Assembly (NCBI RefSeq): GCF_027000115.1
Contig: NZ_JALTON010000040.1
Span: 1-64,000 of the forward strand
Origin: Thiohalobacter sp.
GTDB taxonomy: Bacteria > Pseudomonadota > Gammaproteobacteria > Thiohalobacterales > Thiohalobacteraceae
DNA: 64,000 nucleotides
Reading direction: 5' to 3'
The translations under genes and the position numbers were made by a program. Below the pieces are notes generated by a model. The model saw only the letters and a list, made by a program, of their open reading frames with translations. It had not been told where the DNA came from and made no database searches. Shown here one piece after another: positions 14,308 through 19,860 of the stretch (its first letter is position 1; each line of letters starts with the position of its first letter).

Positions 14308-15531
14308 ATGGCGCTGTTCCGGTACAGGGCCCGCGGCCCGCGCGGCGACGCCATCGAGGGCACCCAGGAGGCCGCCTCGGCCGAGGCCGTCGCCGGCCGC
14401 CTGATCGAGGGCGGGCTGGTCCCCATCGACATCCAGGTCGTCGACGACCATCCGGCGGCCTCGCGCGACCTGCGCGATCTCTTCCCCGGCCGCGTCGGGC
14501 TGGCCGACCTGATCCTGTTCAGCCGCCAGATGTACAGCCTGGTCCGCGCCGGCGTGCCCATGCTGACCGCGCTCAACGGGCTGGCGGCCACCAGCCGCAA
14601 CCGCACCCTGGCGCGCGCCCTCGGCGAGGTGGTGCAGATGCTCGAGGCCGGCCATGACCTGGCCACCGCGCTGAACCACCAGCCCGAGGTGTTCAGCGAC
14701 TTCTATGTCTCCATGGTGCGGGTGGGCGAGACCAGCGGCCAGCTGGAGGACATCTTCCGGCAGCTGACCTACTACCTGGAGCGTGAGAAGAAGACCCGCG
14801 ACCAGGTGCGCGCCGCGGTGCGTTATCCGCTGTTCGTGCTGGTCATGATCACCATCGCCATCGGCATTATCAACGTGTTCGTGGTCCCGGCCTTTGCCCA
14901 GATCTTCGAGCGTTTCGACGCCGAGCTGCCACTGGCCACGCGCATCGTCATCGCCCTGTCCGACTTCACCGTGGACTACTGGCATCTGCTGCTGGGCGGG
15001 CTGATTGGCGCCGTGGCCGGGCTGCGCATGTATCTCGCCACCGAGGACGGCCGCTACCGCTGGCACCGGGCCATGCTGCGCCTGCCGCTGATCGGCGACG
15101 TGCTCTATCGCGCCGCGCTGTCGCGCTTCGCGCGCCTGTTCGGGATATCACAGCGCGCCGGCGTGCCCCTGATCACCGCGCTGACGGTGGTGGCGCGGGC
15201 CCTGGGCAACGACTTCCTGCGCGAGCGTGTGCTGGGCATGCGCGAGGGCATCGAGCGCGGCGAGGCCATCAGCCACACCGCCGCCGGCTCGGGCATGTTC
15301 GATCCGCTGGTGCTGCAGATGATGGCCGTGGGCGAGCAGTCCGGCACCGTCGACGAGCTGCTGCTGGAGATCGCCCGCTACTACGACCAGGAGGTCGAGT
15401 ACGCCATCGAGCGCCTGAGCGCCGGCATCGGCCCGCTGCTGACCATCTTCATCGGCCTGCTGCTGCTGGTGCTGGCGGTGGCCGTGCTGCTGCCCTGGTG
15501 GGACCTGGCCACGGTGGCGCTCAGCCGGTGA
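14308..15531 (+). CDS. mshG: MSHA inner-membrane platform protein MshG (PilC/GspF family)
   Basis: 407 residues. Polytopic platform protein with two GspF domains. The first cytoplasmic domain contains LILFSRQMYSLVRAGVPMLT; three membrane segments are visible (about 170-195, 220-240 and the C-terminal LLTIFIGLLLLVLAVAVLLP), and the second F domain has RFARLFGISQRAGVPLITAL. It turns ATP hydrolysis by MshE into pilin movement. It starts one base after mshE and is followed by 147 bases before mshA. Confidence 0.95.
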   Translation: MALFRYRARGPRGDAIEGTQEAASAEAVAGRLIEGGLVPIDIQVVDDHPAASRDLRDLFPGRVGLADLILFSRQMYSLVRAGVPMLTALNGLAATSRNRTLARALGEVVQMLEAGHDLATALNHQPEVFSDFYVSMVRVGETSGQLEDIFRQLTYYLEREKKTRDQVRAAVRYPLFVLVMITIAIGIINVFVVPAFAQIFERFDAELPLATRIVIALSDFTVDYWHLLLGGLIGAVAGLRMYLATEDGRYRWHRAMLRLPLIGDVLYRAALSRFARLFGISQRAGVPLITALTVVARALGNDFLRERVLGMREGIERGEAISHTAAGSGMFDPLVLQMMAVGEQSGTVDELLLEIARYYDQEVEYAIERLSAGIGPLLTIFIGLLLLVLAVAVLLPWWDLATVALSR

Positions 15532-15678: not shown

Positions 15679-16071
15679 ATGAACAGGCAATCCGGATTCA
15701 CCCTCATCGAACTGGTGATGGTTATCGTCATCCTCGGCATCCTCGCCGCCATGGCAGTGCCCAAGTTCGTGGATCTTTCGTCGTCGGCCGAGGCCGCCGC
15801 GGCGCGCGGCATGAGCGGCGCGGTCAAGTCGGCGCATGCCATCGCCATCGCCGACCTCAAGACCTTCCCGACGGTCACCCAGCTCGCAACCTATGTGAAT
15901 GCCCAGGGCGTAACGGCTGCCCCCGGCGGTATTCAGGTCGACATCAATGGCAGGACCTGTACCATTCCTACCTACACGGATGCCAACTGCTCTTCCGGCA
16001 ACCAAACCACCGCGACTGGTAATACGGTGCAGTGTGTGGGAACCCTGACCAGCATGGCCAGCTGTACCTGA
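15679..16071 (+). CDS. mshA: MSHA-type major pilin
   Basis: 130-residue type IV prepilin. Leader MNRQSG is cleaved before FTLIELVMVIVILGILAAMA; Glu5 of the mature protein is present. The globular part is small, with four cysteines late in the chain (RTC, ANC, VQC, ASC), allowing two disulfides. AAGGAGA lies 7 bases before the ATG, one of the strongest ribosome binding sites in the locus. A strong hairpin terminator follows 48 bases after the stop, which fits high expression of the major subunit relative to mshC and later genes. Confidence 0.92.
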   Translation: MNRQSGFTLIELVMVIVILGILAAMAVPKFVDLSSSAEAAAARGMSGAVKSAHAIAIADLKTFPTVTQLATYVNAQGVTAAPGGIQVDINGRTCTIPTYTDANCSSGNQTTATGNTVQCVGTLTSMASCT

Positions 16072-16172: not shown

Positions 16173-16643
16173 ATGAGCCACAGGGACGCGCAACGCCGCC
16201 AGCAGGCCGGCTTCACCCTCACCGAGCTGGTGATGGTGCTCATCCTGATCGGCGTGCTCGCCGCGGGTGCCGCACTGCGCGCCGGCTTCGGCGATGTCAC
16301 CGTATCGGCCCAGGCCCGCCAGGTCGCCCGCGACCTGCGCCACACCCAGCTGCTGGCCATGACCGAGGGCCGCACCCTGCGCTTCGAGTCGCTGGGCACG
16401 AGCTACCGGGTCACCGATACCGTCAGCCCGGTCATCGATCCCGCCACCGGCGCCGATTTCGTGGTCAACCTGGAAGACGGCGCCCGCCTGAGCGCCGGCA
16501 CCCTGGACTTCGACAGCCTCGGGCGCCCGGTCAGCGGCGGCAGCCTGGTCGCCGGGGTCAGCAGCTTCACCCTGAGCGGTGCCAGCCAGTCGGCCCGCAT
16601 CGACATCCAGCCGGTCACCGGCTTTGCGAGCGTGACGCCATGA
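16173..16643 (+). CDS. mshC: MSHA minor prepilin MshC
   Basis: 156 residues. Prepilin leader SHRDAQRRQQAG is followed by the cleavage and assembly segment FTLTELVMVLILIGVLAAGA with Glu5. The globular domain resembles GspH/FimT-type minor pseudopilins (ARQVARDLRHTQLLAMTEGR). The ATG at 16173 lies after the mshA terminator hairpin; longer in-frame upstream sequence would run through that hairpin and is rejected. The stop overlaps the mshD ATG (ATGA). Confidence 0.85.
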   Translation: MSHRDAQRRQQAGFTLTELVMVLILIGVLAAGAALRAGFGDVTVSAQARQVARDLRHTQLLAMTEGRTLRFESLGTSYRVTDTVSPVIDPATGADFVVNLEDGARLSAGTLDFDSLGRPVSGGSLVAGVSSFTLSGASQSARIDIQPVTGFASVTP

Positions 16644-17035
16644 GGCCGGGCGACCGCGGCTTTTCGCTGATCGAGCTGGTGCTGGTCATCCTGGTGCTGG
16701 CGGTGGCGGCCGTGGCCCTGGCCACCCAGTTCAGCCAGTCGGTCGCCGGCATCGGCCTCGACGAGGAACTGCAGACCGCCACCCGCCTGGCCGAGGAACG
16801 CGCCGAGCAGCTGCTCGCCGACCGCCGCCGCAGCGGTTATGCCGCAGTGCCGCTGGGGACCACCACGGATACGCTCGCCGGATCCTACGCCGGCTACGGC
16901 CGCACCGTCACCGTCAGCGCCTATGCCGGCCCGGCCTGTCCGGTGCCGGCCAGCGGCTGTCGCGAGGTGGACATCACCGTCACCCGCGGCGCGGCCACCC
17001 GCGCGCGGCTCCGCTTCCTGGTCGCGAACTACTGA
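16640..17035 (+). CDS. mshD: MSHA minor prepilin MshD
   Basis: 131 residues with leader RPGDRG and mature N-terminus FSLIELVLVILVLAVAAVAL. The rest is a small domain with two cysteines close together (PACPVPASGCRE), likely a disulfide. Similar to PilV/MshD-type minor pilins that prime assembly at the pilus tip. It is coupled to mshC by a 4-base overlap and followed after 11 bases by mshO. Confidence 0.8.
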   Translation: MRPGDRGFSLIELVLVILVLAVAAVALATQFSQSVAGIGLDEELQTATRLAEERAEQLLADRRRSGYAAVPLGTTTDTLAGSYAGYGRTVTVSAYAGPACPVPASGCREVDITVTRGAATRARLRFLVANY

Positions 17036-17046
17036 GGGCCGACGCA

Positions 17047-17580
17047 ATGCACCGACACGGCCGCGGCTTCACGCTGATCGAGACGGTGGTCACGCTCACC
17101 GTGCTGGCCATCATCGCCGGCATCACCGCTTACGGCATCGGCCACGCGGTGCGGGCGCAGCAGCAGGCACAGACTGTGTTCGAGACCCTCGACCGCTTGC
17201 GCCTGGCCAGCGAGCGCCTCGCCCGGGAACTGCGCAGCGTGCGCCGTGATCCGACCACGCCCGCCAACTATGACTTCCTGTCGCGCACGGCGACCGCGGT
17301 CAGCTTCCGGCGGCTGGAAGCGGACGGCGTCACCGTGACCACGGTCAACATCGCCGCGAGCGGCAGCAACCTGGACCTCGGCTACGACAGCCCGGCCGGT
17401 GACTGGCGGCTGACCGACCAGGTCAGCAGCTTCACCCTCGCCTACTACCAGGCCGACGGCGCGACGCCCGCCACCGGCAACGCCGATGTCGCCTTTGTCG
17501 AGTTCGAGCTGGTGCTGCTGGATGGCAACGGCAACAGCTATCCGCAGCGCACGCGGGTGGCCCTGAGGAACACGCAATGA
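17047..17580 (+). CDS. mshO: MSHA minor prepilin MshO
   Basis: 177 residues. Leader HRHGRG, then FTLIETVVTLTVLAIIAGIT with Glu5, then LASERLARELRSVRRD, the usual helix continuation in PilW/MshO-type minor pilins, and a beta-rich C-terminal domain with no cysteines. The stop overlaps the mshP ATG. Probably part of the priming tip complex with MshC, MshD and MshP. Confidence 0.85.
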   Translation: MHRHGRGFTLIETVVTLTVLAIIAGITAYGIGHAVRAQQQAQTVFETLDRLRLASERLARELRSVRRDPTTPANYDFLSRTATAVSFRRLEADGVTVTTVNIAASGSNLDLGYDSPAGDWRLTDQVSSFTLAYYQADGATPATGNADVAFVEFELVLLDGNGNSYPQRTRVALRNTQ

Positions 17581-18857
17581 ACAGGGGCGGCATCCGGCGG
17601 CAGCGCGGCGCGGCCATGGTCATCGCAGCGGTATTCCTGATCGTCGCCGTGCTGGTGTACGGCCTGGTGGCGCTGCGCATGGCCGGTACCAGCGTGACCG
17701 ACTCGGCGCTGGTCGCCGATGCCGCCGAGGCCCTGTTCCTGGCCGAGAGCGGCCTGGAGCGCGCCGCCCAGCGGCTGGCGAACGGGACCGCCTGCGCCGC
17801 GCTGGCCCCCGACGCCGGGCAGGCCTTCGGCAGCGGCGACTTCCAGATCCTGTCGGCGGCCGATGTCGGCGGCCTGTGCCGGGTTCAGGTCGTGGGCAGG
17901 CGGTTGATGGCCGGCCAGCCACGGGCACAGCGGGTGATCGAGGGGGATTTCGCGCTCGGGGCCAGCGGCAACTGGGTGGTCGGCAACAACGGTGTGGTTC
18001 TCACCGATGGCAGCGGGAGCTGGTCGACAGTGCCCGCGTTCACCGGTGACGACCTGAATGGCATCGATTGCGCGGGCAGCAGCTGCCTGGCGGTCGGCGA
18101 CCGTGGCGGCGCCTTTACCTACGACGGTTCCGCCTGGTCCGCGACAGCCACGGGTACCGGTCAGGACCTTGAGGATGTTGCCTGCGAACCGGGCACCACC
18201 AGCGCCTGTTTCGCGGTCGGCGAAAATGGCACCGCCCTGCGCTGGACGACGGCCTGGGCGGCGACCAACAGTGGCACGGGCCGCGACCTCAATGGCGTGT
18301 ATTGCGGCACCGGCTTTTGTTATGTCGTGGGGGACAACGGGACCATACGACGCTGGACCGGTGGGACCAACTGGCTGGGCGGCGAGATCGCCTTCAGCGC
18401 CCGGAACCTCAACGGCGTCGCCTGTCTGCCGGGCAGTGCGACCGCCTGTTTCGCCGTCGGCCGGAACGGGACTCTTTTGCAACGCTTCGCTTTCGGACCC
18501 TGGGGGTTCTGGATCTCGGTGGCATCGGGGACGGGGCGCCACCTCAACGACATAAGCTGCCCCACAACCACCTTCTGTGTGGCCGTAGGCAACAACGGAA
18601 CCGCCCTGGTCTGGAACGGCACGAGCTGGAGCGGCTCGGCCACCGGCACATCCCGGCGTCTGCGGGGCGTCGACTGTGAAACGGGCGTCGCCGGCAACTG
18701 CCTCGCCGTGGGCAACAACGGCACCATCCTGGCCTGGAACGGTGCCGCCTGGAGCACCCAGCCCTCCGGTACGGGCAGTCGGCTGAACGATGTCGCAGTC
18801 GCCAGCGGCGGTGGTGGCAGCGTCACCCTTGCCCGCTGGCGCGAGCGCATCTTCTGA
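17577..18857 (+). CDS. mshP: MshP/PilX-like minor pilin carrying a seven-repeat propeller-like domain
   Basis: 426 residues, far longer than a pilin-only MshP. Residues 1-128 are the pilin part: RRQRGAAMVIAAVFLIVAVL with the PilX-type start rather than a FTLIE motif. Residues about 130-408 hold seven repeats of 38-45 residues with the core CxAVGxNGTxxxWxGxxW ... GTGxxLxGVxC. Cysteine pairs 165/170, 203/211, 243/248, 283/291, 328/334 and 367/375 sit at the junctions and probably form disulfides. The last residues (VTLARWRERIF) look like the end of the pilin, so the repeats may be inserted rather than appended. A sialidase/Ycf48-like beta-propeller displayed at the pilus tip as an adhesin is inferred. 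Confidence 0.8.
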   Translation: MNRGGIRRQRGAAMVIAAVFLIVAVLVYGLVALRMAGTSVTDSALVADAAEALFLAESGLERAAQRLANGTACAALAPDAGQAFGSGDFQILSAADVGGLCRVQVVGRRLMAGQPRAQRVIEGDFALGASGNWVVGNNGVVLTDGSGSWSTVPAFTGDDLNGIDCAGSSCLAVGDRGGAFTYDGSAWSATATGTGQDLEDVACEPGTTSACFAVGENGTALRWTTAWAATNSGTGRDLNGVYCGTGFCYVVGDNGTIRRWTGGTNWLGGEIAFSARNLNGVACLPGSATACFAVGRNGTLLQRFAFGPWGFWISVASGTGRHLNDISCPTTTFCVAVGNNGTALVWNGTSWSGSATGTSRRLRGVDCETGVAGNCLAVGNNGTILAWNGAAWSTQPSGTGSRLNDVAVASGGGGSVTLARWRERIF

Positions 18858-18924: not shown

Positions 18925-19860
18925 TTGCTGTCCCTGTTCCGAAAGCGCGATGCCGCCATCCGCCATGCCGTCGTTCCGCTCGACCGGGGCGTGGCCTTTG
19001 CCGAGGTCGACCGCCGTGGCGAGGCGCGCCCTCGTCTCGTCCGCTGTGGCTTCGTACCCAACGGCGACGATGCCGCGGCGGCGCTGGCGCGTGCGGTGCG
19101 GGCATGCGGCGCGCGCCAGGCGCCGGTCTCCACCCTGCTCGATGTCGGCAGCTACAACCTGCTGTTGGTGGAAATGCCGCGAGTGCCCCCGGAGGAAATG
19201 CGCCAGGCGGTACGCTGGCAGGTCCGCGACCTGATCGACTTCCACATCGACGATGCCGTGATCGATGTGTTCGACGCGCCGGCCAGCGCGGCGCGCGGCG
19301 TGCAGGACCATCTCTACGTGGTCGCCGCCCGCAAGGCGCTGGTGCAGGAGCGGGTCGATGCCCTTGCCGCGGCCGGCGCGAAGCTGGGCGTGATCGACAT
19401 TCCCGAGCTGGCGCTGCGCAATCTCGCAGCGCTGCTGGAAGAAGACCGCGAGGGCGTGGCGCTGTTGTATCTGGGCGACGACAGTGGCCTGATCGCGCTG
19501 TGCCGGCAGGGGGTGCTGTATCTGGCGCGCACCCTGGCGCTGGGACAGGTTCGGGTGTCGGAGGCGCTTGCCGGCGGCGACGAACAGCTGTTGGGTTCGC
19601 TGGCGCTGGAGATCCAGCGCACGCTGGACTACTACGACCGCCACTTCCAGCAGGCGCCCATCGGCCGGCTGGCCGTGGCGCCGCTGGCCTTCGACGGCGC
19701 CCCGCTGACCGAATCCATCCAGTCCCAGCTCGGCCTGCAGTCGCGGATGATCGACCTGTGCCAGACGCTGGAATGCGAGACCACCCCCGACGCAGAAACC
19801 GCCAGCCAGGTCACCCTTGCCGTGGCTGCGGCCTTGCGGCAGGAGACGCGCAGCCTGTAG
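18925..19860 (+). CDS. mshI: MSHA biogenesis protein MshI (PilM-like)
   Basis: 311 residues from a TTG at 18925, with AGAGGG upstream; an ATG at 18790 lies inside mshP and is unlikely. The N-terminus LSLFRKRDAAIRHAVV resembles MshI. The body has an actin-like fold signature typical of PilM relatives (LLDVGSYNLLLVEMP, EEMRQAVRWQVRDLIDFHID, VALLYLGDDSGLIALCRQG). It would sit in the cytoplasm and bind the PilN-like protein. It is the last gene of the locus and about 11 kb from its expected partner genes, unlike the Vibrio order. Confidence 0.85.
   Translation: MLSLFRKRDAAIRHAVVPLDRGVAFAEVDRRGEARPRLVRCGFVPNGDDAAAALARAVRACGARQAPVSTLLDVGSYNLLLVEMPRVPPEEMRQAVRWQVRDLIDFHIDDAVIDVFDAPASAARGVQDHLYVVAARKALVQERVDALAAAGAKLGVIDIPELALRNLAALLEEDREGVALLYLGDDSGLIALCRQGVLYLARTLALGQVRVSEALAGGDEQLLGSLALEIQRTLDYYDRHFQQAPIGRLAVAPLAFDGAPLTESIQSQLGLQSRMIDLCQTLECETTPDAETASQVTLAVAAALRQETRSL

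Follow-up and report, generated by a model that had tools for sequence, protein, structure and literature searches.

Modular type IV pilins are already known (PMC8179133). The PilB and PilC pilins of Streptococcus sanguinis combine a pilin module with a bulky head for display at the tip; however, in these the vWA or lectin head follows the pilin module as a fusion and is neither inserted nor a propeller (PMC8179133, PMC9934059). ComZ, the competence pilin of Thermus thermophilus, carries an inserted domain between its penultimate and last strands and is the nearest known modular pilin to the one described here, although that domain, a beta-solenoid, is a presumed DNA binder, and ComZ belongs to another pilus, with no propeller and no link to MshQ (PMC6561018). 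In the PilX/PilY1 system, a propeller-containing tip protein possesses a C-terminal strand that is predicted by complex models to join and complete the PilX sheet (PMC11046646, PMC13190605); but these are two proteins with a non-covalent joint, and the PilY1 propeller (PF05567) is of another family. The MSHA pilus has a tip pilin candidate, MshP, and the DUF6701 protein MshQ, which has been described as a putative MSHA adhesin, and whose loss in V. cholerae leads to fewer surface pili (PMC7096442). How a non-pilin adhesin is attached to the tip of a type IV pilus is an unsettled question. A 2026 preprint by Ellison et al. reportedly deals, judging by its title, with strand complementation in tip initiation complexes and may already cover MSHA. 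The propeller type discussed below is shared with Ycf48/Hcf136, an assembly factor of photosystem II, which has seven blades and the same repeat type but stands alone, acts in assembly and lies outside any pilin.

Here we describe an MshP of Thiohalobacter sp. with the architecture of a modular pilin, i.e. a pilin module joined to an additional domain whose type is not confined to pili. With a probability of about two in three, we regard it as the MshP/MshQ tip complex in a covalent, one-chain form, the propeller being its exposed, probably adhesive head. As far as we found, a pilin with a propeller as its head, the swapping of heads at a single MshP slot, the clean loss of a head and the alternation of such forms with MshQ are new.

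The MSHA locus and its last minor pilin

The window, i.e. the whole stretch of 64,000 nucleotides that was analysed, contains an MSHA locus with the gene order mshJ-K-L-M-N-E-G-A-C-D-O-P, as assigned from sequence and order (Table 1). The final minor pilin gene, after mshA-C-D-O, is mshP; its open reading frame is intact, with no internal stops, and the frame and the locus order agree with the preliminary description of a last minor pilin of 426 residues. Classical MSHA loci share this locus position and the N-terminal MshP module, and their MshQ appears to end in a similar last strand, but they use two genes where one is found here. No mshQ lies between mshP and mshI, and DUF6701 gave no match in MshP or its genome in a search that was positive in 81 of 370 genomes of the class.

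Table 1. Features of the MSHA locus and of MshP, with positions in the window.
Feature	Position	Strand	Remarks
mshG-like platform protein	14308..15531	+	named from sequence and order
mshA-like major pilin	15679..16071	+	
mshC-like minor pilin, GFTLTE	16173..16643	+	named from locus order
mshD-like minor pilin, GFSLIE	16640..17035	+	named from locus order
mshO-like minor pilin, GFTLIE, Glu5 present	17047..17580	+	
mshP, proposed one-chain tip pilin, 426 aa	17577..18857	+	ATG overlaps stop codon of upstream mshO
MshP pilin module, residues 1-128	17577..17960	+	leader, strand list of model, weak PilX_N match
Seven-bladed propeller, residues 132-407, six Cys pairs	17970..18797	+	
Gly-rich linker, residues 408-415	18798..18821	+	low-pLDDT block
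Conserved tail VTLARWRERIF; strand 416-424, predicted last strand of pilin sheet	18822..18854	+	
mshI (PilM-like)	18925..19860	+	directly 3' of mshP, gap about 70 bases

The class III leader of the pilin module ends at Gly11, and the AlphaFold2 model gives a helix at residues 10-68 and strands at 87-97, 100-111 and 114-127; an additional Cys pair, Cys73/Cys101, lies within this part. The Pfam profile PilX_N matches weakly (E 0.075, 13.5 bits, under its cut-off of 25.5), and profile A5 connects the N-terminal part of MshP to the short MshPs of genomes with DUF6701, so that leader and helix are those of a PilX_N/GspK-like protein. Position +5, counted from the leader, holds Ile instead of Glu, and among MshA, C, D, O and P of this locus only MshP lacks Glu5. 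A missing Glu5 is expected of a GspK-type tip pilin, and this feature, together with the GspK-like character, suggests that MshP is located at the tip. A fold search with an insert-less pilin alone gave no significant PDB match, probably because the long helix dominates.

In the AlphaFold2 model (21 sequences; mean pLDDT 89.5), a closed seven-bladed propeller separates the third strand of the pilin sheet from the last. Three N-terminal strands and one C-terminal strand, 403-407, together close blade 1, and six further blades make up the ring, blade order and closure being taken from the strand list of the model alone. The seven repeats that had been recognised earlier are recovered by an HMM built from homologous blades, which counts seven, and by seven VG..G cores, starting at residues 134, 172, 213, 250, 293, 336 and 377. 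The propeller fold that had been supposed from these repeats is upheld both by the predicted closed ring and by comparison with other propellers: Foldseek gives as its top match a designed seven-bladed propeller (7bid, E 2.7e-11) and includes Ycf48 (2xbg, E 8.2e-8) among its natural matches, and a sequence-profile search ranks Ycf48 first (E 2.9e-6), as the nearest natural propeller. With seven blades and this profile similarity, the domain belongs to the Ycf48 type. Pfam and NCBIfam searches did not recognise it, a PDB search with the single MshP sequence returned nothing significant, and PF05567, the PilY1 domain, had no match in MshP.

Among the 26 unbroken propeller-bearing proteins, including the present MshP, 23 have seven blades, two have six and one has 14. 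A blade number that is nearly fixed, with one exact doubling, is the pattern predicted by a closed seven-bladed ring. The 14-blade homologue (L049:1971-4295) apparently holds two tandem propellers in one slot. The positions given earlier for six Cys pairs (165/170, 203/211, 243/248, 283/291, 328/334 and 367/375) are all correct; their placement where one repeat meets the next is not borne out, as the model puts each pair at the hairpin of the first two strands of a single blade, and pairs so placed would not join neighbouring blades. The cysteines are mostly gained or lost pairwise (both present in 114 blades, neither in 35, one only in 18), and the six pairs are probably disulfide staples.

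Tail and insert slot among relatives

The tail that follows the propeller is conserved: all 33 intact MshP relatives, which were collected by an N-terminal pattern only, have W-x-[E/D] within their 14 C-terminal residues, against 3.8-5.5% of other open reading frames. In the model of an insert-less homologue, the tail forms the fourth pilin strand (pLDDT 89). The tail had at first been likened to a PilX-type C-terminus, but the usual PilX C-terminus differs, the PilX of the same genome ending in ...VTEVMVRSYYGRKF; VTLARWRERIF instead corresponds to the tail seen in insert-less MshP, and it is similar to the ends of MshQ and PilY1. Tail matches in two further proteins (L088 and L092) were set aside, as they are located inside an extra domain and are probably due to chance. 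A PilX-like protein ending in ...VIVWREE (L067) comes from a contig labelled Thermoplasmata archaeon, which is possibly mis-binned.

The survey of mshP homologues that the preliminary description had proposed found the same architecture, i.e. pilin, propeller and tail, in many gammaproteobacteria, in the same family, in other families and in complete genomes. The most informative relative comes from a Thiogranum MAG (L051): its MshP of 143 aa is 75% identical to a propeller-bearing MshP of 442 aa (L040), and the propeller is exactly absent. The junction is in frame, reading ...RLAAG before and NSAVTLIRWQEIIAN after the missing domain, the tail is retained in DNA and protein, mshO and mshI flank the gene in the same synteny as in L040, and the locus contains no detached propeller gene. 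The tree places L051 with L040, strongly supported, inside a set of propeller forms, which points to a probable loss of the propeller in L051. There is a small chance that the empty slot is a private assembly error of this MAG, against which stands a second insert-less form in another genome (G005). Together with the model, the insert-less relative that keeps its tail sustains the earlier suggestion of a domain inserted into a pilin rather than a simple fusion. The slot also accepts other contents. In the sister of the L040/L051 group (L050) an unrelated domain occupies this position, further relatives bear other domains there, without a Pfam match, and on the tree the slot content has to change 8 times, where 3 would be the fewest possible.

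Five relatives (L054, L057, L060, L018 and L016) have an extra segment of about 60-80 residues in the pilin part, before the propeller, which reads ..STTIPV.ST.GY...GR..ID.E.I.Y..RG.D.T.A..H..G..; L054 carries the label Myxococcales.

Alternation with MshQ and the proposed tip

MshP-like matches and DUF6701 matches were compared across 370 gammaproteobacterial genomes. A W-x-E-tailed MshP without DUF6701 was found in 27 cases, DUF6701 without such a tail in 30, both in 1 and neither in 15, the last class being in part ordinary PilX. This near mutual exclusion (Fisher p 2.8e-8, uncorrected for kinship, the counts not being independent by descent) splits the two builds almost cleanly by family, with two families (f65 and f83) containing both. 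Four complete single-contig genomes (G001, G004, G090 and G294) have no DUF6701. Among the genomes surveyed, DUF6701 occurs together with a W-x-E-tailed MshP-like protein in one alone (G092, L114), which has two neighbouring PilX-like genes. Where DUF6701 is present, the MshP-like proteins are, with one exception, 126-170 aa long, and several can be aligned with the pilin profile as far as its end, i.e. the third strand, where they terminate without a fourth strand. A tail of similar kind is found at the C-terminus of MshQ (e.g. ...RIIYWRERFD and ...GIYRGDDRIIYWRERFD): 34 of 40 MshQ tails fit [IL][YFHLD]x[RKQ][ED] in their last ten residues, against a background of 1.8%, a contrast that is descriptive as the motif was chosen post hoc, and Trp occurs within the motif in only 8 of the 40. 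The tail VTLARWRERIF resembles this IY-x-RE type, in a stretch too short to prove homology. The alternation and near exclusion with MshQ make the present MshP look like the one-piece version of a pilus tip that is normally made of two pieces.

We propose the following arrangement. MshP would sit uppermost among the minor pilins of the MSHA pilus, anchored in the filament tip by its pilin helix. After three pilin strands the modelled chain passes into the Ycf48-type propeller and then returns to add the W-x-E tail as the last pilin strand. In the classical build, MshP stops after strand three, and MshQ most likely completes it in trans by strand addition; the one-chain build would make this joint in cis, so that the head could not dissociate. 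The propeller would form an exposed head, most likely binding a surface ligand in adhesion, and in other lineages different domains take its place at the same slot. The architecture, the point of insertion, the conservation of the tail, the swapping of modules and the near mutual exclusion with MshQ all have computational support, and the position at the tip, strand addition in classical MSHA, the disulfides and ligand binding are inferred.

The architecture could also have arisen by plain insertion, the ancestral MshP being four-stranded, the propeller having been inserted into the loop that precedes the last strand, with the likeness of the tail to those of MshQ and PilY1 being convergent or due to chance. 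We regard this as unlikely. MshQ tails match the motif far above background, the short MshPs of DUF6701 genomes are without a fourth strand, and L051, which together with G005 shows that insert-less tailed forms exist, is nested among propeller forms and looks like a loss, even though ComZ demonstrates that insertion can occur at exactly that point (PMC6561018).

An equally doubtful reading assigns the propeller mainly to assembly, either as a secretin plug or as a scaffold on which the minor pilins are primed, rather than to ligand binding. That Ycf48 is an assembly factor fits such a role. The lower number of surface pili after mshQ loss in V. cholerae fits it as well (PMC7096442). However, the slot can hold unrelated domains or be empty, as would sooner be expected of a head that can be exchanged than of an assembly part that is conserved. 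That separate pilin and propeller genes were fused here by a sequencing or assembly error is refuted for practical purposes: nothing was found in its favour, although a frameshift within the propeller breaks mshP in one relative (L048, MAG G010), the same full-length reading frame recurs in different families and in genomes that are complete and consist of a single contig, and the empty slot with its tail in L051 and the unrelated domain in another close relative argue against any such fusion.

The one-chain tip with an adhesive head, our preferred reading, bears on how tip proteins are coupled in general. MSHA tips may come in two interchangeable builds, i.e. a split pilin completed by an MshQ strand in trans and a single chain with an exchangeable head, with the strand joint as a general coupling between tip pilin and adhesin; we lean, if only slightly, towards this wider view. 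Natural one-chain forms, with a covalent joint, heads swapped at a fixed slot and MshQ absent, provide independent evolutionary evidence for the strand joint and allow it to be tested on one protein alone.

The analogy with PilY1 drawn in the preliminary description proved better founded than first supposed, but the direct counterpart is MshQ. Many PilY1 proteins have ends similar to the MshP tail, for instance ...GRLSWKEIRR, and the PilY1 of the same genome has ...GRFSWEEL.... This genome encodes a separate PilY1/PilX tip set (L112) on a contig (C50) other than that of mshP, in which PilY1 ends in ...GRFSWEELRCATTDANCTN and has its W-x-E motif 15 residues before the C-terminus.
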